Shown in pieces: positions 6,703 to 62,872 of a stretch of DNA of 64,000 bases; the stretch's first letter is position 1; the number at the start of each line of letters is the position of its first letter. The notes beneath the pieces are model-generated. The model worked only from the letters and a program-made list of their open reading frames with translations, ran no database searches and was not told the origin of the DNA. Source of the stretch: Actinomycetota bacterium (GTDB lineage Bacteria; Actinomycetota; Acidimicrobiia; Acidimicrobiales; Ilumatobacteraceae). A program made the translations under genes and the position numbers. The DNA lies in the NCBI GenBank assembly GCA_016870865.1, contig VGAC01000006.1, positions 1-64,000 of the forward strand, in the 5' to 3' direction.

Positions 6703-7467
6703 TCAGCGGTACGCCTCGTAGCCCGACTTCTCGAGCTCGGCGGCAATTTCCATGCCACCCGACTTCACGATGCGACCGTCGACCATGATGTGGACGAAAT
6801 CGGGCTGCAGTTCGTCGAGCAGACGCTGATAATGGGTGATGAGGACGATGCCGAGGTTCGGCCGGTCGGCGCGCACCTCGCGAATGCCCTTGGCAACGAT
6901 GCGCAGCGCATCGATATCGAGGCCGGAGTCGGTTTCGTCGAGAATCGCAAGATCAGGTTCGAGGATCGCCATCTGCATGATCTCGTTGCGCTTCTTCTCG
7001 CCACCCGAGAATCCTTCATTCAGGTATCGGTCGACGAAGGACGAGTCCATGCCGAGGCGTTCCATCCAGCCCATGACGGACAAACGCAGTTCGAGCACCG
7101 ACAGGTCGATGCCTTTGCGTGCTGAGAGCGCCTGACGGAGAAACTGGATGACCGACACGCCGGCAATTTCCTGCGGATACTGGAAGGCGAGGAAGATCCC
7201 GGCCTTGGCGCGCACCTCGGTTGACCAGTCGGTGATGTCTTCGCCCTTGTAGATGAGACGGCCTCCGGTGACCTCATATTCGGGGCAGGCGAGAAGCGTG
7301 GAAGCAAGTGTGGACTTGCCGCAACCGTTCGGGCCCATGATGGCGTGGATCTGACCCTCGTCGACGCTCAGGTCGACGCCGCGCAGAATCCCTTTCGGGG
7401 CGACGCCGTCGTCTTCGTCGGTGACGGGTGCGGCGTGGAGGGACTCGACGCGAAAAAGATTCCTCAC
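6703..7467 (-). CDS. sufC: SufC, ATPase of the SUF iron-sulfur assembly complex
   Basis: The 254-residue ABC-type ATPase has Walker A GPNGCGKST, the SufC-specific signature FSGGEKKRNEI and Walker B LAILDETDSGLDID. SufC powers the SufBCD scaffold. The start is the GTG at 7467: it has no Shine-Dalgarno site but sits seven bases after a TAGACT hexamer, suggesting a leaderless message. Residues 12-22 (TDEDDGVAPKG) form a short acidic loop within the first beta strands. The gene leads a sufC-sufS-sufU run. SufB and SufD, its obligate partners, are absent from this cluster, which departs from the common sufB-sufD-sufC-sufS-sufU order. Confidence 0.93.
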   Translation of the reverse strand: MRNLFRVESLHAAPVTDEDDGVAPKGILRGVDLSVDEGQIHAIMGPNGCGKSTLASTLLACPEYEVTGGRLIYKGEDITDWSTEVRAKAGIFLAFQYPQEIAGVSVIQFLRQALSARKGIDLSVLELRLSVMGWMERLGMDSSFVDRYLNEGFSGGEKKRNEIMQMAILEPDLAILDETDSGLDIDALRIVAKGIREVRADRPNLGIVLITHYQRLLDELQPDFVHIMVDGRIVKSGGMEIAAELEKSGYEAYR

Positions 7468-7474
7468 AAAGCCA

Positions 7475-7480
7475 AGTCTA
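7475..7480 (-). promoter_or_regulatory. -10 element of sufC (leaderless type)
   Basis: TAGACT on the minus strand ends seven bases before the sufC GTG. Transcription from it would begin at the start codon itself. An identical hexamer precedes pepA. Confidence 0.6.
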
Positions 7481-7500
7481 AGAGCCTCCCCGGGGGTTTT

Positions 7501-7516
7501 CACTACGCAGGTAGTG
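7501..7516. promoter_or_regulatory. Palindrome upstream of the sufC promoter (operator candidate)
   Basis: CACTAC-GCAG-GTAGTG has perfect six-base arms and lies at about -34 to -49 relative to the predicted sufC start site, overlapping where a -35 box would be. A repressor or iron/redox regulator could bind here. The named regulator is unknown and no sufR-type gene is in the window. Confidence 0.4.
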
Positions 7517-7954
7517 GTAATTCCGCACCACCTCACGGGGTCCGCCAGGGGCGCGGGAACCGGGCGATTTCTCGCCCCCGGGGAGACGTGGCCGGGGGTG
7601 GGCGGCACTGCAACCACGGTCGTCGGCAGCGAGGGGGGATGCGCGAACCGACGCCTGCAGATCGCGTGGGTTCCCGGATGCCGCCGAGTGCCTGATGTCA
7701 TACCGCCGCTGTCGGCGATCGAGCGCGGACGTTCGTCGAACCGCGACTTGGTCGAACTCGGCCGCAACCCGAACCGTGGGCGGAGGCCCGAGGCGCCGTT
7801 CACGGCTCCTGCATCGAGCATCGCGATCCGGATCGACCGGACTTTGGTTGTTCGCGGCGCACTCTTTCGTCGGATGTCCGCAGGCGTGCGGGTGTCACGG
7901 GGTGGTTTGCATCGAGCGGAGACGTGCCCTCGGGAGCCAATTATCGGCCACAGT

Positions 7955-7960
7955 TACACT
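7955..7960 (+). promoter_or_regulatory. -10 element of the pyruvyl transferase gene (leaderless type)
   Basis: TACACT ends exactly six bases before the GTG at 7967, so the predicted first transcribed base is the G of the start codon. Confidence 0.6.
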
Positions 7961-7966
7961 CGGCGC

Positions 7967-9205
7967 GTGGGTGAGGGGCGGGTTCGTCACGTGCTGGTCG
8001 TGAACCAACACGGCGACAACCGTGGCGATGAGGCGGCTCTGCACGGAATGCTGTCGGGCATCACCCGCGCGAACGACGGCCCGCTGCGCTTCACCGTCAT
8101 CCACCAGTTTGCCGACGACCGTTCGGCACGGAAACTTGCTGCATCGTCTGGCTTCGACGTCGAGTGGATGTCGCTCAAGTTGTCCCCCATCGAAGGGTTG
8201 CGGCTCGTCCTGCATCTGTTGACCCGAATCAGCGCCGTCCTCGGCCGGGCCGGCGCGGCCACCATCGCGGCGTACCGCAGCGCCGACGTGGTGGTGTCCG
8301 CCCCCGGCGGGCCCTACTTCGGTGACAACTACATCGGTCACGAACCCGTGCATTGGTTGTACGTCTGGATGGCGCGCATCCACCGCAAACCTGCCGTGCT
8401 GTACGCCACTTCCGCCGGGCCGTTCGACCGCACGTGGGCGAACCCCTTCCGGCGCTTCACGTACCGCTGTTTCGACGCGGTGATCGTGCGCGAAGAGATT
8501 TCAGCCGCGCATATCCGCGCGCTGTTCGGCACGCGGCGACGCAACGTCGACGTTCGTGTCACCGTCGATGCGGCGATGCAGGTCTCGGTGCCGCCGGTCC
8601 TGCGCGACCCCGCACTGCGACGCGTGGTCGTATCGGCGATTGACTGGAAATACGACGGTACCGCCTCACCCGAGGCGCGTCGGGCGAACTACGACGCCGC
8701 GGTGTCGGCCGCGGTCAAAGAGTTGTGCGCGGGTGTGGCTTGTGAGGTGGTCCTGGTGCCCCAGCTCCACGGCACTGCTCACCGTGATGCGCCGTATCTC
8801 GAGCGGTTGGCGTCGTCGATTCGTGATGCGGTGGACAACGACGTGATGGTGAGTGTGTACGACGAGTCGCAGGAGATGTTGGCCCAGCGTGCACTCTTCG
8901 CATCGGCGGATTTCGTCGTTGCGGGCCGGTACCACCCAGCGGTGTTCGCCCTTTCGGCCGGGGTGCCGCAGATATGCATTCCCTATGAACACAAGGCCAC
9001 CGGTGTTTTGCAGCTCGCCGGTCTGTCCGATGTCGTGGTGCCGATCGACATGGTGACGACACAGCGTCTGGTCGATGTTGCGCGCACCGTGCGCGAACAC
9101 GCCGATGACGTGCGGGAGCGCTCGCGGGCCGCGGCGACGCGGCTTGCCGAGCTATCGGCGCAGACTTCTCGCGCGGTCATCGACATCATGGATGGCGCGC
9201 TGTGA
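7967..9205 (+). CDS. Polysaccharide pyruvyl transferase family protein
   Basis: The 412-residue protein fits the pyruvyl-transferase fold (PF04230): GDNRGDEAALHGM near the N-terminus, VSAPGGPYFGDNYIGH at about 105-120, and the C-terminal nucleotide-binding part with GRYHPAVFALSAGVPQICIPYEHKATG. Such enzymes transfer pyruvate from phosphoenolpyruvate to sugars of exported or cell-wall polymers, and some relatives have other donors. The start is set at GTG 7967 by the TACACT box six bases upstream; a second GTG eight codons later is possible. It overlaps the next gene by four bases (GTGA), so the two products very probably act on the same glycan. Confidence 0.85.
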   Translation: MGEGRVRHVLVVNQHGDNRGDEAALHGMLSGITRANDGPLRFTVIHQFADDRSARKLAASSGFDVEWMSLKLSPIEGLRLVLHLLTRISAVLGRAGAATIAAYRSADVVVSAPGGPYFGDNYIGHEPVHWLYVWMARIHRKPAVLYATSAGPFDRTWANPFRRFTYRCFDAVIVREEISAAHIRALFGTRRRNVDVRVTVDAAMQVSVPPVLRDPALRRVVVSAIDWKYDGTASPEARRANYDAAVSAAVKELCAGVACEVVLVPQLHGTAHRDAPYLERLASSIRDAVDNDVMVSVYDESQEMLAQRALFASADFVVAGRYHPAVFALSAGVPQICIPYEHKATGVLQLAGLSDVVVPIDMVTTQRLVDVARTVREHADDVRERSRAAATRLAELSAQTSRAVIDIMDGAL

Positions 9206-11082
9206 AGACACGCCGCATGCTGATGATCGGCACGTTCGACCCCACGTTCGGACGCAATCGGCAACTGGTGCGCCTGGCCACGATGCTCGGTTGGCAGGTG
9301 TCGGTGCGCAGTCTCGGCGCATGGGGTGACGACAAGGTCGCCGCCGCTTCGCGCGGTCGTGCGTTGACCGCGTTGCGAGTCGGTGTCGCCTACGTGCGTC
9401 TCGTGGGGGTCTTGCTCGCGGCTGCGGTTCCGGGCCGCAGGCCGCACGTCGTCGTCGTGCCCCACCCCTCGCAGATCGACGCCGTCGTCGTCGGGCCGCT
9501 GTGCAAGGTCCTGCGTTTGACGCTGGTCGTCGATTTCTTCGTCTCCTTGCACGAGACGGTGGTGACCGATCGCGGTCTGGTCAGCGAACGTTCGCCCATT
9601 GCCGGCCTGTTGCGCCGTTGCGACACATGGGCAGCACGCCTTGCCGAGGCGGTGATCACCGACACGCCCGAGGACGCCGAGGCTTTCTCCGCTGCAACCA
9701 ACACGCCGCGCGCGAAGTGGCACGTGGTGTGGGTCGGGGCGGACCCGGCGATCTTCACCGAACGACCCGATGTCGCCGTCGAGCCACGGTCGGTGTTGTT
9801 CTACGGCACGTACATCCCGTTGCAGGGCATCGAGCACATCGTGCGCGCATCGTTGCTGATGCCCCGCGACTGGCGTGTTCGTTTGGTCGGTGGTGGTCAG
9901 GTGCGCCCCGACATCGATCATCTGATCCAAGAAACCGGTGCGCGGGTCGAAATGGTCGACCAGGTCCCTGAGTCGCAGCTGCCGGTCTTGATCGCATCAT
10001 CGACGGTGTGTCTCGGAGTGTTCGGCTCGCGCGACAAGACGCGCCGTGTGATTCCGAACAAGGTCTTCCAGTGCATGGCCGTGGGTCGTCCCGTCGTCAC
10101 GGGTGATACGCCTGCGGTCGCGGCACTTGGTGCCGGTGTCGAACGTGTTCCGCTCGGCGACCCCGCCGCAATCGCCGCCGCCGTGCAGAAGCTGATGGAC
10201 GACCCCGTGCGCCGTGAGGCCGTCGCGCGTCGCGCGCGGCAGATCTTCGTCGACCGCTTCGACGACGTCGCGCTTTCGCCGTTGCTCGATCGGGCCCTCG
10301 GGGTCTGTGATGCGCCGTCAATCACACTGCCTCCTCTGACGACGATGGCGCGCCTGCGTCAGCCGTTCATCGATGCGGCGGTCCGCAGGGTACGCCCAGG
10401 CTCGATTCTCGAAGTCGGCGCGGGCCAGGGCGCAACAGGTGCACGGCTCGCGGCACATGCGCCGTACGTTGGGGTCGAACCCGACATGTCCTCCGCGGCC
10501 GTTGCTGCCTCACGCATGGCGCGCATCGGCAATGCCGAGTTCCGCATGGGTGGCATGGAGCGCGTGGGCAACGACGAGTATTTCGACTTGCTGTGCGCAT
10601 TCGAGGTGTTGGAGCACATCGACGACGACGCCGGTGCCCTGCGCGGCTGGATGGCACATCTCGGCCCCGAGGGGCACGTGCTGTTGAGTGTGCCCGCGCA
10701 TGCCCGGCGATTCGGGCCATCCGATGAGGCCGTTGGTCATTTCCGTCGCTATGACGCGGTCGACATCGAACGACTGTGCGCATCGGCGGGTCTCGAGATC
10801 CTCGAGCGACGCGCATACGGTGCAATCGGTGGTCATGCGCTCGAGTTGGCACGCAATGTCGTCATAGGCCGCGGCGGCGGCAACGTGTCGGCCGTTGCGG
10901 CACCCGAGACCAAGTCGGCTGGCAGCGGCCGTTTGTTCCAACCCACCACGCGCGCGGCAGGCATCCTGACCGCCTTGCTTGCCGCACCGATGCGGGTCGT
11001 ACAACGCCCGTTTGCCGCTGGTCAGTTCGGCGTGGGTTGGGTCGTTCTCGCCCGCCGTAGGCGCGGCACCGTGTATGCGTAA
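9202..11082 (+). CDS. Fused GT4 glycosyltransferase and SAM-dependent methyltransferase
   Basis: The 626-residue protein joins two enzymes. Residues about 1-375 are a GT-B, GT4-type glycosyltransferase with the donor-site segment IPNKVFQCMAVGRPVVTGD, where Gln stands at the position usually held by a Glu. Residues about 395-626 are a class I methyltransferase: motif I ILEVGAGQGATGARLA, then LLCAFEVLEHIDDD, the usual post-II block. The join suggests that a sugar is added and then methylated, or that a methyl cap regulates chain length. GTG 9202 overlaps the previous stop (GTGA). The 3' end runs 61 bp into the convergent membrane-protein gene. I see no stop or frameshift at the domain junction. 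Confidence 0.87.
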   Translation: MKTRRMLMIGTFDPTFGRNRQLVRLATMLGWQVSVRSLGAWGDDKVAAASRGRALTALRVGVAYVRLVGVLLAAAVPGRRPHVVVVPHPSQIDAVVVGPLCKVLRLTLVVDFFVSLHETVVTDRGLVSERSPIAGLLRRCDTWAARLAEAVITDTPEDAEAFSAATNTPRAKWHVVWVGADPAIFTERPDVAVEPRSVLFYGTYIPLQGIEHIVRASLLMPRDWRVRLVGGGQVRPDIDHLIQETGARVEMVDQVPESQLPVLIASSTVCLGVFGSRDKTRRVIPNKVFQCMAVGRPVVTGDTPAVAALGAGVERVPLGDPAAIAAAVQKLMDDPVRREAVARRARQIFVDRFDDVALSPLLDRALGVCDAPSITLPPLTTMARLRQPFIDAAVRRVRPGSILEVGAGQGATGARLAAHAPYVGVEPDMSSAAVAASRMARIGNAEFRMGGMERVGNDEYFDLLCAFEVLEHIDDDAGALRGWMAHLGPEGHVLLSVPAHARRFGPSDEAVGHFRRYDAVDIERLCASAGLEILERRAYGAIGGHALELARNVVIGRGGGNVSAVAAPETKSAGSGRLFQPTTRAAGILTALLAAPMRVVQRPFAAGQFGVGWVVLARRRRGTVYA

Positions 11083-13726: not shown

Positions 13727-13737
13727 AGTCGCCGCCG

Positions 13738-14640: not shown

Positions 14641-14641
14641 G

Positions 14642-16384
14642 TCAGCACGAATCTACTCCCGAGCGCATCCAGAGAACGATGTTTCCTCGCTCCTGCCTGC
14701 CGCGTGACGCGGCGTCATTCTCTTGTGCAACGATCATCCAACCCGAATCCTCGGGCGGTCGATCGACGGCGCCGATGACGCAGTGCAGGGGTTTCCGGTC
14801 GATCCAGCGCACGTCGGCGCGTGACACCTGGGTCGGATGAAGAAGGTATCTGTAGTCAAAGAAGGTTTGACCGCCGAGTCCGCCGGAGTCGAAGGTGATC
14901 GTCGTCCCACGTTTCTCTCCACCAACTCGTTCGCGCACGTCGTCGTCGAGTGTCATTTGATCGAAGTAGTCGCGATAGGGAACCACCGTACGAGCGGCGG
15001 TGAATGTGGTGAAGAAGAGAGAAATGACCGCGAGGACGACGAGAAAGACCGACACACTCCTCCGGGCCATCACGAACAGCGCGAGCGCGAGCACGACGAA
15101 AGCGACCGTGAGCGACAAGTAGCCTGCGGGTTTCGTCAACTTGAGCGCCCAGTCGAGTGCGACCGCGTTGGGGATTGCAAAGAAGTTTTTCTCCGACGTC
15201 ATGGCACGAAGCTCGTCACGTCCCGCGGCAGCCGCGAGGGCTGCCGCACAAGCGACGACACCGACGATGCCGACTGCCCAGGCTCGACGCGCAACATTCG
15301 ACCCGCCAGTCACCGCACTGAGGCCAATCAGCACGAACACCGGAGTCACGGCTTCGAGGTAGCGACCGTAGACGAGGTGGTCGGGGCGTATGACGTTGAG
15401 TACCTGCAGAGCAGAGGCAAGTGCGACGCTTCCCGCAGACAAAGTAAGGAAAGCGGGTGCCAACCATTGCAGATTTCCTGCACGACGCAGACCGAGCAGT
15501 ACCGAGCGCACGTTCATGGCAAGGCCAACGGCGGCAAGACCGAACGAGGTTGCGAGCACGTACCACAGCTGTCCGACGGCTGATCGTCCGAGGCTCGGCA
15601 GGTTGGACGGTGTCGTCAACCTGTCGATCATGCGGCCCTCCTTGCCGTCGGCCGCGGGGTACAAATCCCGACGCAGGGACACGTTGATGCGGGTGAACAC
15701 CCACCACGACACGACTGCGGCAACGCCGCCACCGAGGGTGACGGCGAGCAACCGGCGCGGGGCGCGCGTTGCGACGACGACCAACAGAAGGATGGCAAGA
15801 GCGGGAAGCAGCGTGAAGCGACCGTGCACGATGACCGCGAATGACGATGCGGTACCAATCGACAGGGATGTCGACCATCGCGGACGCATGACGTGTTCGT
15901 GGGCCAGCAAGACGACTGCGACAAAAACAAAGCGATTCAGTGTCTCGGACCACGCGAACAGGGAATTTGCCGCCACGGCCGGTGCGAGTGCAACGACGAT
16001 TCCGAGTGCGCGCGCCGTGTTGCGCGCGACGGCAAGGTGGCGAAAGGCGAGTCGTGCAAGAGCAGCGCAAGTGGCGACGACGAGGGCGAGGTTCACCAGC
16101 AGCGACAGTCGGTACTGCGCGTCGATCCCCCGGCCGACGACGGCCGCTGCTGCGGTGACGAATCCGTATCCGGCCGTGTAGAACGGGCGGAATTCGGCCC
16201 CGAAGAACGTCTCATGGTGACCGGTCAGGACCCAGCCGTTGAGAAGAAAGCCGAGTTCGTCGGGTCGTACCGATGCGCCGCGTGATGCGAACGTCGCCCA
16301 GATCAAAACGCCGAGGCAAGCGATCCCGAGACCGTGAATGCATCGATGAAATGTTCGGACCTGCATCGACCGAGGCGTGCTCAC
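14642..16384 (-). CDS. Polytopic membrane protein, GT-C-glycosyltransferase-like
   Basis: The 580-residue protein has roughly eleven hydrophobic helices and a soluble C-terminal stretch of about 100 residues. The first extracytoplasmic loop contains RPDELGFLLNGWVL; an acidic pair (DE) in this loop is characteristic of GT-C enzymes that use polyprenyl-phosphate sugars. The identity is inferred from topology and from the adjacent polyprenyl-phosphate synthase-like GT2, because no family motif is decisive. GTG 16384 overlaps the MBL-protein stop (GTGA); an ATG at 16366 is the alternative. Confidence 0.7.
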   Translation of the reverse strand: MSTPRSMQVRTFHRCIHGLGIACLGVLIWATFASRGASVRPDELGFLLNGWVLTGHHETFFGAEFRPFYTAGYGFVTAAAAVVGRGIDAQYRLSLLVNLALVVATCAALARLAFRHLAVARNTARALGIVVALAPAVAANSLFAWSETLNRFVFVAVVLLAHEHVMRPRWSTSLSIGTASSFAVIVHGRFTLLPALAILLLVVVATRAPRRLLAVTLGGGVAAVVSWWVFTRINVSLRRDLYPAADGKEGRMIDRLTTPSNLPSLGRSAVGQLWYVLATSFGLAAVGLAMNVRSVLLGLRRAGNLQWLAPAFLTLSAGSVALASALQVLNVIRPDHLVYGRYLEAVTPVFVLIGLSAVTGGSNVARRAWAVGIVGVVACAAALAAAAGRDELRAMTSEKNFFAIPNAVALDWALKLTKPAGYLSLTVAFVVLALALFVMARRSVSVFLVVLAVISLFFTTFTAARTVVPYRDYFDQMTLDDDVRERVGGEKRGTTITFDSGGLGGQTFFDYRYLLHPTQVSRADVRWIDRKPLHCVIGAVDRPPEDSGWMIVAQENDAASRGRQERGNIVLWMRSGVDSC

Positions 16385-17001: not shown

Positions 17002-17007
17002 GCCCTC

Positions 17008-17016
17008 ATTCTCGCA
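17008..17016 (-). promoter_or_regulatory. Extended -10 (TGC-GAGAAT) of the MBL gene
   Basis: TGCGAGAAT ends six bases before ATG 17001. The identical nine-base string at the identical distance precedes aceE at 26313. The first base of the hexamer is G rather than T, but the TGC in front supplies an extended -10. Confidence 0.5.
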
Positions 17017-17023
17017 CGGCGCT

Positions 17024-17443: not shown

Positions 17444-17724
17444 CGGAGATCCCGCACGATGTGGTCGAAGCGCATTCCGCTGTGGATGTCGATCGCCGGG
17501 GGAAGCGGGTTGGCGTGTGTGCGTGCGGCGCGTCGGGGCGGCACGACCAGGCCGCGGGCCACGAGCTCCTCCATCGTCGTACCGGCGGGCGCGTCGACAG
17601 GGCCCAACTGGGCGATGGGGCGCCCCGATTCGGTGACGATGACCCGTTCCCCGGCAGCCGCACGCCGCAGGGTGGTGGCCAGGTTGGCCCGTAATTCGCG
17701 GGTTCCGACCTTCGCGCGCGCCAT
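17440..17724 (-). CDS. Phd/YefM-type antitoxin
   Basis: The 94-residue protein opens with AKVGTRELRANLATTLRRAAAGERVIVTESGRPIAQLGPV, a clear Phd/YefM DNA-binding fold, and ends with a basic and hydrophobic tail that should wrap the PIN toxin. It is expected to repress its own promoter and neutralise the downstream toxin. ATG 17724 lies seven bases after TATCCT, so the message is predicted leaderless. The short downstream overlap keeps toxin and antitoxin translation linked. Confidence 0.87.
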   Translation of the reverse strand: MARAKVGTRELRANLATTLRRAAAGERVIVTESGRPIAQLGPVDAPAGTTMEELVARGLVVPPRRAARTHANPLPPAIDIHSGMRFDHIVRDLR

Positions 17725-17731
17725 GTCGGGC

Positions 17732-17737
17732 AGGATA
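17732..17737 (-). promoter_or_regulatory. -10 element of the antitoxin-toxin operon (leaderless type)
   Basis: TATCCT ends seven bases before the antitoxin ATG. No Shine-Dalgarno sequence lies in between. Confidence 0.55.
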
Positions 17738-17818
17738 GCCGCCGAGCCGACCAAGTGTGTACACACCAGTACACACACGCCGTTGCATGCCTTGCTCTCC
17801 CTGCGGCAGGCTTTGCCC

Positions 17819-20699: not shown

Positions 20700-20959
20700 G
20701 TCGCAATCCGTTTGATGCGCGACCTGATGCCGATGGGCAGGTGACGGTAGAAGAAGCGAAGAGGCCACACCCACCACTTGTGTACCCAGACCTTTTTCTC
20801 CTCCGCCGAGCGGTAGGTCGGGAATGCGTAGGGCTCATCGGAGATGCCGTGCTCGGCGCGGTAACGGGCGGCATTGGCCTTTGCGCGATCGGCGAGCCGC
20901 GCATCGACTGCGGCAAGTTCGGCGAGACGTGCGTCGATCTCGCTGCGGCGCAGACCCAT
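20696..20959 (-). CDS. Small basic hypothetical protein preceding a glycosyltransferase
   Basis: The 87-residue protein is helical and charged. Residues 3-35 form a likely coiled coil (RRSEIDARLAELAAVDARLA), and the C-terminus is rich in Trp, Arg and Lys (WVHKWWVWPLRFFYRHLP), suggesting a peripheral membrane contact. It is coupled to the downstream GT2 by an ATGA overlap, so it may be an accessory subunit. No family is recognised. The ATG at 20959 lies seven bases after TAGGCT, consistent with a leaderless message. Confidence 0.68.
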   Translation of the reverse strand: MGLRRSEIDARLAELAAVDARLADRAKANAARYRAEHGISDEPYAFPTYRSAEEKKVWVHKWWVWPLRFFYRHLPIGIRSRIKRIAT

Positions 20960-20966
20960 GTGCGCG

Positions 20967-20972
20967 AGCCTA
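20967..20972 (-). promoter_or_regulatory. -10 element of the small-protein/GT2 operon
   Basis: TAGGCT on the minus strand ends seven bases before ATG 20959. It lies back to back with the plus-strand -10 at 20980-20985 inside a 33-bp divergent gap. Confidence 0.6.
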
Positions 20973-20979
20973 CTGCCGC

Positions 20980-20985
20980 TACTCT
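20980..20985 (+). promoter_or_regulatory. -10 element of the 74-residue protein gene
   Basis: TACTCT ends seven bases before ATG 20993. Confidence 0.55.
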
Positions 20986-20992
20986 TGGCCGC

Positions 20993-21217
20993 ATGGAGCG
21001 CCCCGGACGTTTCGAGCACACTCGCTTCCTCGGTGACAAGAGAACCCAGCTCGTCTACGACCTCGATTCGTGGACCGACGAGTCGGTCATCGACGACATC
21101 GTTGCCAATGAAGTTGGACTTTGTTTCGGTCCCGACACGCTTGCCGAGGCACGCAACCGCGGCTACACGCTGGCCACACCCGGTGCGTCGCGTCGGCATC
21201 ACAAGCCCCGCGCCTGA
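20993..21217 (+). CDS. Small hypothetical protein (74 residues)
   Basis: The protein begins MERPGRFEHTRFLGDKRTQLVYDLDSW and ends in a basic tail (RRHHKPRA). The middle, CFGPDTLAEARNRGYT, looks conserved but matches no family I can name. The frame is supported by its leaderless-type promoter and by the next gene starting two bases after its stop. It may be expressed with the hydrolase-fold protein downstream. Confidence 0.6.
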   Translation: MERPGRFEHTRFLGDKRTQLVYDLDSWTDESVIDDIVANEVGLCFGPDTLAEARNRGYTLATPGASRRHHKPRA

Positions 21218-21219
21218 TC

Positions 21220-22011: not shown

Positions 22012-22015
22012 ATCG

Positions 22016-22993: not shown

Positions 22994-22995
22994 GA

Positions 22996-23583: not shown

Positions 23584-23598
23584 CAGCGATGAATCTAC

Positions 23599-26369: not shown

Positions 26370-26936
26370 ATGGAAAGGCCCATGGAACTTCCCTTTGATG
26401 ACCTGCCGCCCGCGTCGAAACCGGCCGATTCGCGCAACCTTGAAAAAAGGCTGCTGTATGAACTGCGCGCGATGCAATGGCCCGACCGCGCCCCACGCAC
26501 GGCAAGGCGCGTGTACACCGACGGCGCGTGCTCGGGAAACCCCGGTCCTGGAGGCTGGGCGTGGGCGGTCGCGCCGGAGGGCGAGCCGAACGGGTCGGGC
26601 GGCGAGCGGTCGAGCACCAACCAGCGCATGGAAGTCCGCGCAGTCATCGAGGCCTTGCGCGCGCACCGCAACCACGGCGAACCACTCGTCATCGTCTCCG
26701 ACAGCACCTACGTGGTGAATTGTTTCCGCCAGCGGTGGTGGGAGGGATGGTTGTCGCGCGGCTGGAAGAACAGTCAACGCCAGCCCGTCGCAAATCGCGA
26801 ACTCTGGGAGGACCTGTTCGACGAGCTCGTGGCACGCGGCAGCGGAAAGACGGTTTTCGAGTGGGTCAAGGGCCACTCCGGAGATCCGATGAACGACCTG
26901 GTGGACATTTTGGCGGTGCAAGCGACCGGGGCATAG
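26370..26936 (+). CDS. rnhA: Ribonuclease HI
   Basis: The 188-residue protein has the RNase H core from about residue 47: YTDGACSGNPGPGGWAW (first Asp), NQRMEVRAVIEAL (Glu), VSDSTYVVN (second Asp), WKNSQRQPVANRELWEDL, and KGHSGDPMNDLVD with the last Asp. All four catalytic acids are present. The first 45 residues are an extension without a conserved motif. It removes RNA from RNA-DNA hybrids. ATG 26370 gives the longest credible product; ATG 26382 is the alternative, with GGAAAGG rather close upstream. Confidence 0.92.
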   Translation: MERPMELPFDDLPPASKPADSRNLEKRLLYELRAMQWPDRAPRTARRVYTDGACSGNPGPGGWAWAVAPEGEPNGSGGERSSTNQRMEVRAVIEALRAHRNHGEPLVIVSDSTYVVNCFRQRWWEGWLSRGWKNSQRQPVANRELWEDLFDELVARGSGKTVFEWVKGHSGDPMNDLVDILAVQATGA

Positions 26937-26939
26937 CCT
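26934..26939 (+). promoter_or_regulatory. -10 element of the SDR gene
   Basis: TAGCCT, whose first three bases are the rnhA stop codon, ends seven bases before ATG 26947. Confidence 0.5.
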
Positions 26940-28501: not shown

Positions 28502-28507
28502 TAGTTT
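28502..28507 (+). promoter_or_regulatory. -10 element of the VOC gene
   Basis: TAGTTT ends exactly six bases before ATG 28514. Confidence 0.55.
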
Positions 28508-30071: not shown

Positions 30072-30077
30072 AGGTTA
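30072..30077 (-). promoter_or_regulatory. -10 element of argJ
   Basis: TAACCT, starting with the TAA stop of the upstream SRPBCC gene, ends six bases before the argJ GTG. This gives argJ its own start inside the gene run. Confidence 0.45.
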
Positions 30078-32711: not shown

Positions 32712-32717
32712 AGGGTA
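32712..32717 (-). promoter_or_regulatory. -10 element of the TIGR01777 operon
   Basis: TACCCT on the minus strand ends seven bases before ATG 32704. A plus-strand TAGGCT (32727-32732) lies ten bases before the divergent gene. Confidence 0.55.
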
Positions 32718-40527: not shown

Positions 40528-40533
40528 TAACTT
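40528..40533 (+). promoter_or_regulatory. -10 element of the membrane-protein gene at 40541
   Basis: TAACTT ends seven bases before GTG 40541. Confidence 0.5.
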
Positions 40534-41278: not shown

Positions 41279-41326
41279 CCCGCACGTTTGGGGCCGTTTT
41301 CCGACGGCGGTCTAGATTCAGGTGCA

Positions 41327-45136: not shown

Positions 45137-45142
45137 AAACTA
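45137..45142 (-). promoter_or_regulatory. -10 element of the amidase gene
   Basis: TAGTTT on the minus strand ends six bases before ATG 45130. The plus-strand TAGCGT at 45164-45169 lies nine bases before the divergent thioesterase ATG, so the promoters are back to back. Confidence 0.55.
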
Positions 45143-45178
45143 CTGGAGTTCGGCTCGTAGCGTTAGCGTGTCGTCGTC

Positions 45179-47213: not shown

Positions 47214-47251
47214 AAGGGGTGTCACGCGATGGCGAGGTACGGTTGGCGGCG

Positions 47252-50838: not shown

Positions 50839-50846
50839 AGTATCGC

Positions 50847-51188
50847 CTAGAGCGTGGTCGGCGGTGGGGGAGGCCCGAAGCGGTTCTCGCCGTCGGTGCC
50901 CTGTTGTGCCCAGAACACGAGGTTCACGATGGGCAACAAAAGCCACCAACCGCGGCGGTTGGTGTCATGCAAACGACGGATGCCGAACATCACATGCGGT
51001 ACGACGGTGACGAGCGTAAAAAGGCCGGCGATGCCGCTCGAGATTGCGCTCAGGATCAATTCACCGGCGATGATGAAGAGAAACCACCACCAGAAATCGG
51101 CGCGACGGGCGCGGGTACGAAAGTTGAGGTAGTTGACGAGGCCGGTTTTTATGGCGTTGACGATCGGCACGAACCCAACCGTATCCAT
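50847..51188 (-). CDS. DUF805 family membrane protein
   Basis: The 113-residue protein has the DUF805 features: NFRTRARRADFWWWFLF, a first helix at about 35-58, the FGIRRLHDTNRRGWW motif (about 68-82) between helices, and a last helix ending NLVFWAQQGTDGENRFGP. It is a small inner-membrane protein of unknown function. ATG 51188 directly follows the metH stop (TAG-ATG), so it is probably co-translated with metH; it converges with the ABC exporter gene over an eight-base gap. Confidence 0.87.
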   Translation of the reverse strand: MDTVGFVPIVNAIKTGLVNYLNFRTRARRADFWWWFLFIIAGELILSAISSGIAGLFTLVTVVPHVMFGIRRLHDTNRRGWWLLLPIVNLVFWAQQGTDGENRFGPPPPPTTL

Positions 51189-54668: not shown

Positions 54669-54734
54669 GACGCCTTCAAGTTATCCGCACACGATCGGGT
54701 CTGACCGTGTTTTGCGAACTAACGTTCATGTCAC

Positions 54735-55301: not shown

Positions 55302-55314
55302 TTCGAGGGTTTCC

Positions 55315-55320
55315 TAGACT
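55315..55320 (+). promoter_or_regulatory. -10 element of pepA
   Basis: TAGACT ends exactly six bases before GTG 55327; the same hexamer precedes sufC. Confidence 0.6.
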
Positions 55321-55326
55321 GTCCAC

Positions 55327-57212: not shown

Positions 57213-57266
57213 GACCCCATGTGTGCGTTGAACCCCCGCTTGGCGGCAGCCTTATCATTGGCGGCG

Positions 57267-59714
57267 ATGGCGAGCACACGTGTCGAAGCCCTCGTCGCAG
57301 AGTTGACACTCGAGGAAGCCGTGTCGCTGCTCGCGGGTCACGACATCTGGCACACAATGCCGATCCAGCGACTGGGTATCCCACGCATGCGTGTCAGCGA
57401 CGGCCCAGCCGGAGTACGCGGCACCCGTTTCGGGGGTGTGCCTTCGCTGAACGTTCCGTGTGGTTCATCCCTCGCCGCGACATGGGACACCGAAATTGTG
57501 CGGTCGATCGGCGAACTGCTGGGCCGCGAACTTCACCACAAGGGGGCGCGGATACACCTTGCCCCGACGGTCAACCTGCACCGCACGCCGGTCGGCGGCC
57601 GCAATTTCGAATCGTTGGGGGAGGATCCGTTCCTCACGGCCGAGATGGCGGTGGCGTACGTGCGCGGCGTGCAGTCACAGGGTGTGGCAAGTTGCATCAA
57701 GCACTTCGTGTGCAACGACACCGAATTCGAACGCATGTCGATCGACTCACAGGTCGACGAGCGCACGATGCGCGAGCTGTACCTCGTTCCCTTTGAGCGG
57801 GCGGTTCGTGACGCGGGCGTGCTGTCGGTGATGACGGCCTACAACAAAGTCAACGGCCTGCATGCCGCGGACCATGGTTGGCTCGTCGGTGACATCTTGC
57901 GCGGTGAGTGGGGTTTCGAGGGTGTGGTGATCAGTGACTGGCACGGCCTGCACTCGACGGTCGAAGGTGTCGCTGCCGGTACGGATCTCGAAATGCCCGG
58001 ACCCACCCGTCACCGCGGTGAACAACTCGTTGCAGCGGTGCGTGAGAACCGCATCGACGAGGCGGTCGTTCGTCGCGCGGTGGCGAACCTGTTGGGTGTG
58101 ATGGAGCGTGTCGGCGCACTCGACGCCGAGCCGGGGTCCGAGACCACCAACGACGCGCCTGCAGATCGCGCCCTGATTCGTAGGGCCTCGGCCCGGGGAA
58201 TGGTGTTGTTGAGGAATGCGGGTGCTTCGCCCGTGTTGCCTCTGCTTCCCGGGCAGGGCCTGCGGGTGGCTGTTGTCGGGCCCAACGCCGAACATTGTCG
58301 AGTCCTGGGCGGCGGCAGCGCGCACGTCACGCCGACGAGGGTCTCGCATCCGCTTGCCGCATTGCGCGCACGGCTCGAACCATTCGGTGCGGTGGTCGTC
58401 CACGAACCGGGGTGTGACATTGCCAAGCGACTCCCCGAACCGGACCCGTCGATGGTCGCGAACATCACGCTGGAGGTCTTTGCGACGCCCGAGGACCTCG
58501 ATGATCCAACGGCGGCGCCAATCCGCACGTCCCACCCGTCGGGCCTGCGCATTCTCTGGTCGCGTGATCCGGGCCGTCGAGCGGGGGTGGGCCTCGCATT
58601 CGGTGCGCGCTTGTCCTTCGACTTCACACCGAATGCGAGTGTGGCTTGGGACATCGGCTTGGAAACGGTCGGTCCCGCGATCCTGAGCGTCGACGGAAAC
58701 GTTGTCATCGACAATTCGTCGGCGCCGAGCGGCGGATCGTTCTTCGGCACCGGTCGGGTCGAGGTGAAGGGTTCACGTGAACTCACCGCGGGCAGGCCGC
58801 ACCGCGTGATGGTCGAGGTTCGTCGACGTGCCGATACATCGAGCCTCGGCGGAATCAATGTCGGCATACGGGCACCGATATCCACCGACATGGTGGGTGA
58901 CGCAGTCGCACTTGCGGCCCGCAGCGATGTATCGATCGTCGTCGTCGGCACCAACGAGGACTGGGAATCGGAAGGCTGGGACCGCACCGATGTCACCCTC
59001 CCCGGCGAACAGGACAGGTTGATCACCGAGGTTGCGCGGGTCAGCCCCTCGACGATCGTGGTGGTCAACGCCGGGTCGCCCGTTGCGATGCCGTGGCTGA
59101 GCGAGGTCGATGCGGTGCTGTTCACGTGGTTCGGTGGGCAGGAGATGGGCGACGCCTTGGTCGACGTGCTGACGGGCGCGACAGAGCCGCAGGGCCGTCT
59201 GCCCGTGACGTTTCCGCGACACATCGGCGACACTCCCGCAGCGGACGTACATCCCGGTCGTGGCGGCGTGGCGCCGTACCGTGAAGGCCGACTCGTCGGC
59301 TACCGACACTTCGACACCGCGGGCCTTGAGCCGCTGTTTCCGTTCGGCTTCGGTCTGGGTTATGCCGATGTCGTGATTGCTGACGCACGACTCGTTGACG
59401 ACCACACCGTGAGCGTGACATTGCGCAACGACCATGATCGTGACGGTGTGCAGGTCGTGCAGGTTTATGCCCATGTCGTGGACCGTCGGGGTTTCGACCG
59501 TGACGAACCCGACCAGAAGTTGGTGGGCTTCGCGCGCGTCGCGGTTCCCGCAAAGTCAACGGTCGGTGCAGTTGTGGCACTCGACGTTGACGCGTACAGG
59601 TTTTGGGACGTCCAGGCAGGGGGATGGGGCCGCCGCGCCGGCGACGTGGAACTTCGTGTCGGTAGCTCATCGCGGGACATCGCGCGTCGACTCTCGAGAC
59701 GGGGCAGGAATTGA
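57267..59714 (+). CDS. Glycoside hydrolase family 3, beta-glucosidase-like
   Basis: The 815-residue protein has the full GH3 plan: a TIM barrel with the nucleophile Asp in GVVISDWHG (about 230), KHFVCNDTEFER, a sandwich domain with the likely acid/base Glu in NEDWESEGWDR, an inserted PA14-like beta domain (about 415-545) and a C-terminal fibronectin III-like domain (VSVTLRNDHDRDGVQVVQVYAH). PA14-containing GH3 enzymes act on beta-glucosides and related plant or microbial oligosaccharides. No signal peptide is visible, so it appears cytoplasmic. TATCAT lies eight bases before ATG 57267; the stop overlaps the sirtuin start (TTGA). Confidence 0.9.
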   Translation: MASTRVEALVAELTLEEAVSLLAGHDIWHTMPIQRLGIPRMRVSDGPAGVRGTRFGGVPSLNVPCGSSLAATWDTEIVRSIGELLGRELHHKGARIHLAPTVNLHRTPVGGRNFESLGEDPFLTAEMAVAYVRGVQSQGVASCIKHFVCNDTEFERMSIDSQVDERTMRELYLVPFERAVRDAGVLSVMTAYNKVNGLHAADHGWLVGDILRGEWGFEGVVISDWHGLHSTVEGVAAGTDLEMPGPTRHRGEQLVAAVRENRIDEAVVRRAVANLLGVMERVGALDAEPGSETTNDAPADRALIRRASARGMVLLRNAGASPVLPLLPGQGLRVAVVGPNAEHCRVLGGGSAHVTPTRVSHPLAALRARLEPFGAVVVHEPGCDIAKRLPEPDPSMVANITLEVFATPEDLDDPTAAPIRTSHPSGLRILWSRDPGRRAGVGLAFGARLSFDFTPNASVAWDIGLETVGPAILSVDGNVVIDNSSAPSGGSFFGTGRVEVKGSRELTAGRPHRVMVEVRRRADTSSLGGINVGIRAPISTDMVGDAVALAARSDVSIVVVGTNEDWESEGWDRTDVTLPGEQDRLITEVARVSPSTIVVVNAGSPVAMPWLSEVDAVLFTWFGGQEMGDALVDVLTGATEPQGRLPVTFPRHIGDTPAADVHPGRGGVAPYREGRLVGYRHFDTAGLEPLFPFGFGLGYADVVIADARLVDDHTVSVTLRNDHDRDGVQVVQVYAHVVDRRGFDRDEPDQKLVGFARVAVPAKSTVGAVVALDVDAYRFWDVQAGGWGRRAGDVELRVGSSSRDIARRLSRRGRN

Positions 59715-60472
59715 GCGACACCGACGTGGCGAGAGCGCATGCGCTGGTGGCGGCGGCGTGTCGCATCACCGTCCTCACCGGCGCGGGCATTTCGACGAGT
59801 TCGGGGATTCCCGATTTTCGCGGTCCGAACGGTCTTTGGACCAAGAACCCGAAGGCTGAGAAGATGGCGACGCTGCAGCACTACCTGGCCGATGCCGAGG
59901 TGCGGGAGTTGGCGTGGCAGAACCGCCTCCACTCGCCGGCTTGGAACGCCCGGCCCAACGACGGCCACCTCGCACTGGTGGAGTTGGAGCGTCAGGGGCG
60001 TCTGCACGCGCTCGTGACCCAGAACATCGACGAACTGCACCAACGCGCGGGCAACGACCCTGATCGAGTGATCGAGGTGCACGGCACGATGTTCCGCAGC
60101 GTCTGCTGGTCGTGTGGCGACAAGTTGCCGATGGCCGAGACGCTCGAGCGCGTGCGCGCGGGTGAGACCGACCCACCGTGTCGCAGGTGCGGCGGGATTC
60201 TCAAGAGTGACACCATTTCTTTCGGTCAGGCATTGATACCCGAGGTGATCGCCCGCGCGATGGCCGCGGCCGAGACGTGCGATCTGTTTCTGGCGATCGG
60301 TTCGACCTTGTCGGTCTTCCCGGCAGCGAATGCGGTCCCGCGGGCCAAGGCGGCGGGCGCAAAGGTGGTCATCGTCAACGGCGGACCGACCGAAATGGAC
60401 CGGTTCGCCGATGCACTGGTGGTGGGGGACATCAGCGAGATACTGCCCGGCCTGGTGCACCTGGCCGACTGA
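59711..60472 (+). CDS. cobB: Sirtuin-type NAD-dependent protein deacylase
   Basis: The 253-residue protein has the class II/III sirtuin pattern: TGAGISTSSGIPDFRGPNGLW, TQNIDELHQRAGNDPDRVIEVHGTM (catalytic His), zinc cysteines CWSC and CRRC, ILKSDTISFGQ, LAIGSTLSVFPAAN and IVNGG. It removes acyl groups from lysines with NAD, often controlling acyl-CoA synthetases. TTG 59711 overlaps the GH3 stop (TTGA), so they are co-translated. A carbohydrate-metabolism link is possible but not shown. Confidence 0.92.
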   Translation: MSDTDVARAHALVAAACRITVLTGAGISTSSGIPDFRGPNGLWTKNPKAEKMATLQHYLADAEVRELAWQNRLHSPAWNARPNDGHLALVELERQGRLHALVTQNIDELHQRAGNDPDRVIEVHGTMFRSVCWSCGDKLPMAETLERVRAGETDPPCRRCGGILKSDTISFGQALIPEVIARAMAAAETCDLFLAIGSTLSVFPAANAVPRAKAAGAKVVIVNGGPTEMDRFADALVVGDISEILPGLVHLAD

Positions 60473-60498
60473 CGCGGGGGAATTCCCGACCCGATAGG

Positions 60499-60504
60499 TA
60501 GGCT
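60499..60504 (+). promoter_or_regulatory. -10 element of the rhodanese-ThiF gene
   Basis: TAGGCT ends exactly six bases before ATG 60511; the same hexamer at the same distance precedes glf. Confidence 0.6.
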
Positions 60505-60510
60505 TTTCCC

Positions 60511-61677
60511 ATGGCCAGTTTTCGTGACCTTTTGTCCCAGGCAAAGGCGTCCATCACCGAAGTGGACACCAACGAAGCGCAACGCCGCATCGCCGCCGGG
60601 GGTGTGGTGGTTCTCGACGTGCGCGAGCCCGACGAGTTCGAACAGGGCGCGCTGGCAGATGTGTTGCACATCCCGCGCGGCCACCTCGAGGCACAGATCG
60701 AAGGCCGCATCAACGACAAGTCGGCACCCGTCATCGTGTATTGCGCAGGCGGTGTGCGCAGCGCCTTCGCGGCCAAGACGCTCGCCGAACTGGGGTACAC
60801 CGACGTGGTGTCGATGGACGGTGGCTTTGGTCGATGGAAGGACGAGGGCAAGCCGTGGAAGAGACCGGTCTCCCTGACCCAAGAGCAGAAGAACCGCTAC
60901 CAAAGGCACGTCTTGTTGCCCGAGGTCGGGGTCGAGGGCCAGGCCAAGTTGCTCGATTCAAAGGTGTTGATGCTCGGTGCCGGCGGTCTTGGTTCGCCCG
61001 CGGCGCTGTATCTCGCTGCGGCGGGCGTGGGCACGATCGGCATCGTCGACATGGACGTCGTCGACGCGTCGAACCTGCAGCGTCAGATCCTCCACAACCT
61101 CGACCGCGTGGGTGACCGCAAGGTTGATTCGGCCAAGAAGACATTGACGCTCATCAACCCCGACGTCAACGTGGTCACCTACGACACGCGTCTCGATGCG
61201 AGCAACATCATGGACATCATCGCCGGCTACGACGTGATCGTCGATGGTGCCGACAACTTCCCCAGCCGTTACCTGTTGAACGACGCGAGCGTGAAGCTCG
61301 GCATTCCCGTCGTGCACGGTTCCATCTTCCGCTTCGAGGGAATGGTCAGCGTGTTCCACCCGTTGCGCGGGCCGACGTACCGCGACATGGTGCCCGAACC
61401 GCCCCCGGCCGAGCTGGCGCCTTCATGTGCCGAAGCGGGTGTGCTCGGTGTGCTGCCCGGCATCGTGGGCTCGATCCAGGCGCTCGAGACGATCAAGTTG
61501 TTGCTCGACCTCGGTGATTCGCTGATCGGTCGCGTGCTCGCCGTCGACACGACCGACATGGTCTTCCGCACGTTCAAGTTGCGCACCGACCCGAGCAACC
61601 CGGTGACTCATGTGAACCGCGATCGCATTCAAGTGAGGGACCTCGAGGGCCTCTGCGGCCCCGAGTTGTCGCATTAG
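60511..61677 (+). CDS. Rhodanese-ThiF/MoeB fusion (sulfur-carrier-protein adenylyltransferase)
   Basis: The 388-residue protein joins an N-terminal rhodanese (about 1-115; VVVLDVREPDEFEQGALADV and the persulfide Cys in VYCAGGVRSA) to an E1-like adenylyltransferase (about 125-388; MLGAGGLGSPAALYLAAAGVG, DVVDASNLQRQILH, DNFPSRYLLND and SCAEAGVLGV). In mycobacterial MoeZ the rhodanese is at the C-terminus; here the order is reversed. The ThiF part lacks the usual paired zinc cysteines near the C-terminus. It would activate and thiocarboxylate a ThiS/MoaD-like carrier for molybdopterin, thiamine or cysteine synthesis. No carrier gene is nearby. Confidence 0.9.
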   Translation: MASFRDLLSQAKASITEVDTNEAQRRIAAGGVVVLDVREPDEFEQGALADVLHIPRGHLEAQIEGRINDKSAPVIVYCAGGVRSAFAAKTLAELGYTDVVSMDGGFGRWKDEGKPWKRPVSLTQEQKNRYQRHVLLPEVGVEGQAKLLDSKVLMLGAGGLGSPAALYLAAAGVGTIGIVDMDVVDASNLQRQILHNLDRVGDRKVDSAKKTLTLINPDVNVVTYDTRLDASNIMDIIAGYDVIVDGADNFPSRYLLNDASVKLGIPVVHGSIFRFEGMVSVFHPLRGPTYRDMVPEPPPAELAPSCAEAGVLGVLPGIVGSIQALETIKLLLDLGDSLIGRVLAVDTTDMVFRTFKLRTDPSNPVTHVNRDRIQVRDLEGLCGPELSH

Positions 61678-61702
61678 TCGGGCCCATTCGGGCAGGCTCA
61701 TT

Positions 61703-61708
61703 TAGGCT
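61703..61708 (+). promoter_or_regulatory. -10 element of glf
   Basis: TAGGCT ends exactly six bases before GTG 61715. Confidence 0.6.
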
Positions 61709-61714
61709 GGCTTC

Positions 61715-62872
61715 GTGCCCCATGCCCCCCGTCATGTCGCCGTGGTCGGCGCCGGTTTCTCCGGTGCGGTGATGGCCCGCGAACTCGCCGAGGCGGGTCA
61801 TCGTGTCGAGGTGTTCGACTCGCGCGCGCACGTCGCGGGCAACTGCCACACCGAGCGCCAAGAAGGCGACGTGATGGTGCATGTGTACGGCCCGCACATC
61901 TTTCACACGGCGCATGAGCACGTGTGGCAGTACATCAACCGCTTCGGTGAGATGCTGCCCTACCGCCACAGGGTCAAGGCCACGACGCAGGGGAGGGTGT
62001 TCTCGCTGCCGGTCAACCTGTTGACGATCAATCAGTTCTTTGGCACCACGCTCACGCCGGCCGAAGCCGAGGCGTTCATCTCGTCGAAAGCCGACACCTC
62101 GATCACCGACCCCCGGACGTTTCGCGAGCAGGGTCTGCGGTTCGTGGGACCCGAACTGTACGCGGCCTTTTTCGATGGTTACACACGCAAACAATGGGGT
62201 GTGGATCCCGATGAACTGCCCGCCTCGATCCTCGCGCGCCTGCCGATGCGCTTCAGTTACGAGGACTCGTACTTCAATCATCCCTACCAGGCGATTCCGC
62301 GTGATGGTTACACGCCGATCGTCGCGAACATCCTCGACCATCGGTCGATTTCGGTGACGCTCGGTGTTTCGAAGTCGCGTGCAGATCTGGCCGGATTCGA
62401 CCATGTCGTGTGGAGCGGGCCGATCGATGCCTACTTCGATTTCGAACATGGTCGCCTCGGATACCGCACGTTGGATTTCCGCAAGGCGGTGCACGAGGGC
62501 GACTACCAGGGTTGCCCGGTCATGAACTATTGCGACCCCGACGTTCCCTACACACGTATCACGGAGCACAAGCATTTTGCGCCGTGGGAATCACACGACC
62601 GCACGGTGACCTACCACGAGTACAGCCGCCTCTGCGGCGAGGACGACATTCCGTACTATCCGATTCGTCTGGTGAAGGAAAAGGACCAGCTTCGTGACTA
62701 CGTCGGCCTGGTCTCAGCGCTGCGCAACGTCACTTTCGTGGGTCGCCTCGGCACGTATCGTTATCTCGACATGGACGTCACGATCCACGAGGCGCTCGGT
62801 GCGGCGCGCGCGCTTCTCGAAGCCTGGAGTGCCGGTCGCGACGCTGCACCTTTCTCGGTGGACCCGCTGTGA
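61715..62872 (+). CDS. glf: UDP-galactopyranose mutase
   Basis: The 385-residue flavoprotein starts VAVVGAGFSGAVMARELAEAGH and continues with RAHVAGNCHT, YGPHIFHTAHEHVWQYI, FFDGYTRKQWG, RLPMRFSYEDSYFNHPYQAIPRDGYT and LGTYRYLDMDVTI, all standard Glf features including the conserved residues that hold FAD and the UDP-sugar. It converts UDP-galactopyranose to UDP-galactofuranose. The GTG start at 61715 is six bases after TAGGCT. It overlaps the GlfT2-like gene by four bases (GTGA), so the donor is made beside its user. Confidence 0.95.
   Translation: MPHAPRHVAVVGAGFSGAVMARELAEAGHRVEVFDSRAHVAGNCHTERQEGDVMVHVYGPHIFHTAHEHVWQYINRFGEMLPYRHRVKATTQGRVFSLPVNLLTINQFFGTTLTPAEAEAFISSKADTSITDPRTFREQGLRFVGPELYAAFFDGYTRKQWGVDPDELPASILARLPMRFSYEDSYFNHPYQAIPRDGYTPIVANILDHRSISVTLGVSKSRADLAGFDHVVWSGPIDAYFDFEHGRLGYRTLDFRKAVHEGDYQGCPVMNYCDPDVPYTRITEHKHFAPWESHDRTVTYHEYSRLCGEDDIPYYPIRLVKEKDQLRDYVGLVSALRNVTFVGRLGTYRYLDMDVTIHEALGAARALLEAWSAGRDAAPFSVDPL

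Follow-up and report, generated by a model that had tools for sequence, protein, structure and literature searches.

Leaderless genes preceded by a TAnnnT motif are already established for the Actinobacteria. Zheng et al. (2011; PMC3160421) described the motif about 10 bp upstream of gene starts in the GC-rich Actinobacteria and in Deinococcus-Thermus, with TA-led genes making up about 20% in 86 of 89 Actinobacteria and up to 46.1% in Deinococcus radiodurans. In Mycobacterium tuberculosis, Cortes et al. (2013; PMC3898074) found TANNNT centred 7–12 bp before the transcription start site, no -35 motif, C at -1 and T at +2; 22–26% of genes were leaderless, and toxin-antitoxin pairs were mostly so. 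In mycobacterial reporters a 5′-terminal ATG or GTG was both necessary and sufficient for leaderless translation (Shell et al. 2015; PMC4633059), and Corynebacterium glutamicum combines TAnnnT with about 33% leaderless mRNAs, which begin with AUG (about 79%) or GUG (about 21%) (PMC3890552). Overlap between a stop codon and the Shine-Dalgarno (SD) site of the next gene has been described in short intergenic spacers, with an effect at 5–8 bp (PMC2784483). Here we describe TANNNT hexamers, hereafter boxes, that stand 6–9 bases before start codons in the 64,000-base stretch of actinobacterial DNA that was analysed (G000:C6:1-64000, the window) and in the genome from which it comes (1.95 Mb, 96% complete, 42 contigs). 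On sequence grounds it is very likely that these boxes are -10 elements yielding leaderless mRNAs that begin at the start codon, or within 0–3 bases of it. The new point is that the stop codon of an upstream gene can double as part of the box.

For the window's pepA gene the nearest relatives (best 80 of 521) come from metagenome assemblies whose labels are Actinomycetota, Ilumatobacteraceae, Acidimicrobiales or “acIV,” lake names appearing in several. We infer from these labels that the genome belongs to a freshwater member of the Ilumatobacteraceae.

Position of the box

Boxes were counted in a larger sample of 464 kb, made up of the window together with 20 stretches of 20 kb each and containing 465 genes, 444 of them off the edges. 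Starts were called blind to the motif by a gene finder of our own making, which uses only codon score and a start-codon prior, and the gap was defined as the number of bases between the end of TANNNT and the start codon. The hexamer is found at gaps 6, 7, 8, and 9 in 48, 39, 19, and 23 of the 444 genes, at gaps 3, 4, and 5 in none, and at gaps 10, 11, and 12 in 2, 4, and 1. By this strict consensus 129 genes (29%) are boxed at gaps 6–9, against a chance background of 0.14–0.43% per gap, depending on the gene class. The box is present in 68 of 142 divergent genes, in 14 of 89 co-directional genes at least 40 bp from their upstream neighbor, in 24 of 65 at 15–39 bp, and in 23 of 148 at less than 15 bp. 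Fourteen of these last 23 build the box partly from the upstream stop codon.

In the window, gaps 6–7 before an RTG codon (ATG or GTG) that opens a reading frame of at least 60 codons hold 15 boxes, compared with 9 across the six gaps 3–5 and 10–12 (Poisson p ~7e-7). Of the 163 TANNNT-N6/7-RTG matches in the 464 kb, 117 point to a called start or to an in-frame codon at most 90 bases away, and the whole genome contains 185 instances of TANNNT-N6-ATG versus 39 of TANNNT-N4-ATG. De novo expectation maximization (EM) on the 296 genes that are not tightly spaced recovered T-A-(G)-N-N-T, assigned by the fit to 45% of genes, and placed 31%, 21%, 9%, and 11% of the sites at gaps 6, 7, 8, and 9, respectively. 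The gain was 210 (60 restarts), compared with 33–40 in three shuffles (20 restarts each).

An earlier note on this DNA had listed fourteen such hexamers, said to lie exactly 6–7 bases before genes at the head of transcription units and to be expected by chance well under one time in a hundred at a fixed gap. All fourteen are present with these gaps: gap 6 at the starts 7967, 28514, 55327, 60511, 61715, 45130 (minus strand), and 30065 (minus strand), and gap 7 at 20993, 26947, 40541, 32704 (minus), 20959 (minus), 17724 (minus), and 7467 (minus). One further gap-7 box, at 51170 (minus), was absent from that list. The chance estimate agrees with the background given above. The range, however, is 6–9 and not 6–7, and the leads described as one base longer (41327, HhH-GPD, ABC 47252, and GH3) each have the box at gap 8. 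The claim about transcription units is visibly borne out for half of the genes. Five of the fourteen have a divergent upstream neighbor (7467, 7967, 17724, 32704, and 45130), and 20959 and 20993 face apart; the remaining seven follow a co-directional gene, at 10 bp (26947), 14 bp (28514), 9 bp (30065), 39 bp (40541), 25 bp (55327), 38 bp (60511), and 37 bp (61715). Two of the outcomes that the note had named as refuting it did not occur: shifted gaps are nearly empty, and genes less than 15 bp from their neighbor are boxed less often than divergent ones (23/148 versus 68/142).

A stop codon within the box

In co-directional pairs 9–12 bp apart the box often begins with the stop codon of the upstream gene. 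We examined co-directional pairs 3–60 bp apart in the source genome and in 12 relatives of its class, and scored a fusion where the upstream TAA or TAG stop supplies the TA(A/G) of the box and a T stands at the sixth base. In the source genome the upstream gene ends in a TA stop in 18 of 22 pairs at 9–12 bp versus 39 of 124 outside that range; the sixth base is T in 14 of those 18 versus 6 of those 39. The 12 relatives behave alike, with TA stops in 30 of 40 pairs at 9–12 bp versus 79 of 204 elsewhere and T at the sixth base in 21 of the 30 versus 9 of the 79. When one pair was kept per downstream protein cluster, a step that only partly removes the kinship among genus genomes of shared ancestry, TA stops were found in 38 of 50 pairs versus 93 of 286 (p 1e-8) and the sixth-base T in 26 of 38 versus 13 of 93 (p 2e-9). 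Across 200 random choices of cluster representatives the worst p values were 4e-6 for TA stops and 5e-8 for the sixth-base T. At distances of 3–8 bp, where the box would fall too near the start, T is found at the sixth base in none of 19 TA stops (one per cluster).

Five other actinobacterial genomes, with 10 pairs at 9–12 bp, gave no fusion effect (T in 2/6 TA stops versus 9/29 elsewhere), nor did Escherichia coli, with 16 pairs, 4 of them at 9–12 bp (1/4 TA stops versus 4/9 elsewhere). TAA and TAG share a release factor. As judged from the pairs of the source genome and its 12 relatives, fusion of the stop codon with the putative -10 box is general in the class.

Signals at the start codon

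The earlier note stated that most of its fourteen genes lack an SD site, and in the larger sample boxed genes have SD sites no more often than a control window does. In the source genome SD sites precede 0–14% of boxed genes, depending on class, which compares with 10–14% in the control window and 24–42% for unboxed genes. In 10 relatives the corresponding figures are 5–20%, 14–18%, and 24–45%. A single 16S rRNA gene was found, and its anti-SD tail is intact.

The base at -1 and the start codon were counted in the fetched stretches of the source genome and 12 class genomes, and our conclusions are confined to these stretches because the pooled set of relatives shares the pepA locus. A pyrimidine stands at -1 in 175 of 236 genes boxed at gaps 6–7 compared with 493 of 995 unboxed genes (p 5e-12). 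The boxed starts comprise 159 ATG, 77 GTG, and no TTG, whereas 33 of the 995 unboxed genes start with TTG (p 0.001). Both features are consistent with an initiator that coincides with the start codon. A stricter rule, that gap-8 boxes require ATG, was considered and rejected: all 19 such genes in the source genome start with ATG, compared with 51 ATG and 36 GTG at gaps 6–7, yet the relatives have 23 ATG and 7 GTG at gap 8.

Conservation and distribution

Orthologs of 57 window genes were sought in the fetched stretches of the relatives. At least one was found for 15 of the 21 boxed genes and for 16 of the 36 unboxed ones, nearly all of them genes beyond 26 kb of the window. Orthologs of boxed genes have a box at gaps 6–9 in 87 of 104 cases (24 of the 104 being pepA), with an identical gap in 55, compared with 3 of 67 orthologs of unboxed genes. 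At the control gaps 12–15 the counts are 0/104 and 1/67. Below 85% identity the box is still found in 46 of 63 orthologs of boxed genes versus 3 of 51 of unboxed ones.

Among divergent genes, the share boxed at gaps 6–9 is 48% in the source genome, 38–42% in three genomes of the genus, 37–45% in four of the family, 21–43% in three of the order, and 18–19% in two more of the class; samples outside the source genome comprise 10–44 genes each. Six other actinobacterial genomes range from 0 to 23%, and E. coli has 1 of 28. The six include one gene-finder failure, G062 (9.2 Mb), which was set aside as a comparison after SD sites fell below the control and 0/24 divergent genes were boxed. It was kept in the “other phylum” pool for divergent genes and excluded from the gene-pair fusion tests. 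Its whole-genome ratio of TANNNT-N6-ATG to the N4 spacing is 363 versus 79. G013 (28 kb; 1/4 divergent genes boxed) was omitted from the divergent-gene comparison.

Counted over the whole genome, gap 6 exceeds gap 4 by 75 per Mb here, the tenth highest value among 80 genomes. This excess runs from 34 to 92 per Mb in 26 genomes of the family and from -131 to 79 in the other 54, where the value of 79 belongs to G071, an AT-rich-looking genome with a ratio of just 1.1, and the next highest value outside the family is 64. The density that the earlier note called unusual therefore does lie at the high end of the phylum (48% of divergent genes), but it is common to the family (37–45%).

The pepA loci

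The pepA gene (GTG 55327, plus strand) has TAGACT at 55315–55320, gap 6, and 13 of 24 orthologs have the box at 6–9. A wider series of 109 pepA loci was reduced to 95 by excluding exact duplicates and loci cut near the start. The box is present in 48 of the 95, at gaps 6, 7, and 8 in 30, 13, and 5 loci, respectively, and a match at control gaps occurs in 3. Twelve of the 47 boxed loci that have a cobalamin adenosyltransferase gene upstream are fused to its stop codon, at distances of 9 bp (nine loci), 10 bp (one), and 11 bp (two). The fused loci form three groups, with about 72%, 91%, and 65% identity to the query, and the nearest relatives of the 91% group have distances of 25–27. Grouping by identity, rather than by a tree, suggests that the pepA fusion arose at least two, and probably three, separate times.

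SD sites precede 1 of the 48 boxed pepA starts and an in-frame start in 28 of the 47 unboxed loci, an uneven comparison in that boxed loci were scored at one start and unboxed loci at any start within a window. Of the 19 loci with neither signal, 16 have a box one letter off, a count made without a control.

Boxes of individual genes in the window

Two boxes of the window are themselves fused. The box of an SDR gene (26934–26939, plus strand; gap 7, ATG 26947) begins with the upstream TAG stop and is fused in the genus genome G012 too. The box of argJ (30072–30077, minus; gap 6, GTG 30065; PF01960) begins with an upstream TAA stop; its counterpart in G012 does not overlap the stop of the upstream gene (distance 24). 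At other genes the fusion is seen in the relatives. For example, glf (TAGGCT at 61703–61708, plus; gap 6, GTG 61715; 7/8 orthologs at gap 6) stands 37 bp from the upstream gene here and is fused at 9 bp in G005 and G012. TACGGT at 51178–51183 (minus; gap 7; 6/6 orthologs at 6–9) is likewise fused in these two genomes, and the GTG at 51170 that it precedes, rather than the ATG at 51188 directly after the methionine synthase stop, may be the true start.

The box suggests starts unlike those of the gene finder at five window genes: 20959, 20993, 17724, 51170, and 7967. Two of these, the 87-aa protein at 20959 (TAGGCT at 20967–20972, minus; gap 7, ATG) and the 74-aa protein at 20993 (TACTCT at 20980–20985, plus; gap 7, ATG), were missed altogether by the gene finder, and their boxes lie back to back between divergent start codons that are separated by 33 bp. 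Both are conserved small proteins, the 74-aa protein being found in 20 of 24 relatives searched and the 87-aa protein in 11 of 24. Both boxes are at gap 7 in every genus ortholog compared (10 each), and the 20993 box is at gap 7 in 11 of 11 orthologs compared in all. Ortholog boxes support the starts at 17724 and 51170. The start at 7967 (TACACT at 7955–7960, plus; gap 6, GTG; polysaccharide pyruvyl transferase, PF04230) has neither kind of support; the coding-score start is 7991, and the stretches fetched contain no orthologs.

The gene at 17724 encodes a Phd/YefM-like antitoxin (PF02604, below the cut-off), with TATCCT at 17732–17737 (minus; gap 7, ATG) and a box in 10 of 11 rows of relatives, whose starts vary. 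Its promoter (17725–17765, minus; L280–L287) contains GTGTACAC-type palindromes, as do those of several genus relatives, and these could perhaps be the operator of an autoregulated toxin-antitoxin pair. The ABC ATPase gene at 7467, named sufC in the earlier note, has TAGACT at 7475–7480 (minus; gap 7, GTG). The box is found at gap 6 or 7 before GTG here and in 12 of 12 genus and family rows listed; of nine order rows one has no box and the remainder have it at 6–10, with varying starts. Upstream of this sufC-like gene (7475–7510, minus; L256–L276) a GTAGTG(n)(t/a)AA-like element was seen by eye in many of the rows compared, and in some relatives it gives rise to an inverted repeat, AGTG..CACT, that spans the -10 box. 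It is possible that this element is the operator of an iron-sulphur regulator.

Among the remaining boxes, those at gap 6 precede a glyoxalase-like gene (TAGTTT at 28502–28507, plus; ATG 28514), an amidase (TAGTTT at 45137–45142, minus; ATG 45130; PF01425; 5/5 orthologs at 6–9), and the rhodanese-ThiF gene (TAGGCT at 60499–60504, plus; ATG 60511; 9/9 orthologs at gap 6). Gap 7 is found at an epimerase/DUF1731 gene (TACCCT at 32712–32717, minus; ATG 32704) and at a gene without a Pfam match, a membrane protein according to the earlier note (TAACTT at 40528–40533, plus; GTG 40541; gap 7 in 3/4 orthologs). Gap-8 boxes precede an HhH-GPD-like gene below the Pfam cut-off (TAGATT at 23592–23597, minus; ATG 23583), an acyl-CoA dehydrogenase (TAGATT at 41313–41318, plus; ATG 41327; 3/3 orthologs at 6–9), an ABC exporter (TACGGT at 47238–47243, plus; ATG 47252; 5/6 at 6–9), and GH3 (TATCAT at 57253–57258, plus; ATG 57267; 2/2 at 6–9). 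At gap 9 are TAGATT at 14650–14655 (minus; ATG 14640; no orthologs within the stretches fetched), and the boxes of an acyl-CoA thioesterase (TAGCGT at 45164–45169, plus; ATG 45179; 6/7 orthologs at 6–9), the B12-dependent methionine synthase (TAACTT at 54678–54683, minus; ATG 54668; 10/11 at 6–9), and the cobalamin adenosyltransferase (TAACGT at 54720–54725, plus; ATG 54735; 15/16 at 6–9).

Interpretation

The position of the box, its conservation, the lack of an SD site, the initiator-like base, and the stop fusion can all be read directly from the sequence, and the leaderless reading put forward in the earlier note came through each test applied at this level (the empty gaps 3–5, the SD and -1 counts, the lack of TTG, and the orthologs). 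From these features we infer the transcription start site, the sigma factor, and the mode of translation initiation. The housekeeping sigma factor would recognize the -10 box, and RNA polymerase would start at the first base of the start codon (A or G), or 0–3 bases away. Ribosomes would then take the leaderless mRNA by its 5′-terminal AUG or GUG, without an SD site. Because box and start codon would form one rigid module of 15–18 bp, the upstream intergenic DNA could shrink until the preceding TAA or TAG becomes the first three bases of the box, at a distance of 9–12 bp.

Polymerase picks starts across a few positions, and the same promoters could fire 1–3 bases upstream of the start codon at gaps 7–9, so that many mRNAs would be near-leaderless. 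We regard this variant as possible but rather unlikely. Gaps 7–9 do account for 81 of the 129 boxed genes, and the gap drifts between orthologs (the same in 55 of 104, any of 6–9 in 87 of 104), but pyrimidines remain frequent at -1 in genes with gap 7 (28/39 versus 151/309 unboxed), as would be predicted for an initiator formed by the start codon itself. It is very improbable that TANNNT is instead a translational signal, acting through ribosome contact or stop-linked reinitiation. Such a role could explain boxes before tightly spaced genes (23 of 148) and the 14 of 18 TA stops at 9–12 bp that form a box in the source genome; however, the box is commonest in divergent genes (68/142), which have no stop upstream from which to reinitiate, and its sequence shows the -10 consensus TA(G)NNT, flanked by C or T.

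A related proposal, that the stop codon is really fused with an SD site as in PMC2784483, where stop choice is reported to adapt to the SD site at short distances, seems quite improbable here: of 62 pairs at 9–12 bp, 35 have TA(A/G)NNT, and an SD-like tetramer is found in 3 of the other 27. An artefact of composition, in which AT-rich upstream spots make TANNNT common, is hardly credible. Unboxed upstream regions are slightly A-richer at about -14 to -10, but a peak confined to four gaps, with gaps 3–5 empty, refutes this explanation, as does the gain of 33–40 in shuffled upstream regions versus 210 in the real ones.

Several observations nevertheless weigh against leaderless promoters as we propose them. 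Gaps 7–9 could yield leaders of 1–3 bases. No informative column corresponding to a -35 consensus was found upstream of the extended -10 region in 281 boxed genes, although a -35 motif was likewise not found in M. tuberculosis (PMC3898074). The box is absent from 47 of the 95 pepA loci of relatives. It is present before 23 of the 148 tightly spaced genes, and EM on those 148 genes alone recovered neither box nor SD site. In G056 and G034 the whole-genome counts at gap 6 hardly exceed those at gap 4, although 7 of 18 sampled divergent genes in G034 are boxed. Finally, co-directional genes at least 40 bp apart are boxed in just 14 of 89 cases, below those at 15–39 bp (24 of 65). Long co-directional gaps would be expected to hold promoters, and perhaps these are leadered promoters or the gaps contain missed small genes.

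In metagenome-assembled genomes the box makes it easier to place starts from the DNA sequence alone. If the stop/-10 fusion is true, tight operon-like pairs would carry internal promoters, operon prediction based on distance would mislead for fused pairs, and promoter selection would act on the choice of stop codon.

Comparison with known systems

In the partial literature covered, we found no report of leaderless genes in Acidimicrobiia, Ilumatobacter, or freshwater actinobacteria; one Acidimicrobiia paper, in the part available, gives the anti-SD sequence only. No report of stop/-10 fusion was found in the open-licence literature searched. The abstract and section 7 of Zheng et al. (PMC3160421) do not mention it, and the words “stop codon” do not occur in the main text of Cortes et al. 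(PMC3898074).

The motif itself is the TAnnnT of PMC3160421. Our 129 of 444 genes (29%), obtained by strict consensus, were counted differently from the published leaderless shares (33% in C. glutamicum, up to 46% in Deinococcus), with which they are comparable. Starts were measured in M. tuberculosis (PMC3898074) and are predicted here from sequence. As in the mycobacterial reporters of PMC4633059, the start codons behind the box are confined to ATG and GTG, with no TTG among 236. The split of 159 ATG and 77 GTG at gaps 6–7 may be set beside the AUG and GUG shares of C. glutamicum (PMC3890552). The closest precedent for the fusion is the overlap of stop codon and SD site in PMC2784483, since in both cases the choice of stop codon adapts to the initiation signal of the next gene. 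In the present genomes, however, that signal would be a -10 box, the distance is 9–12 bp, and the stop codons concerned are TAG and TAA instead of TGA.

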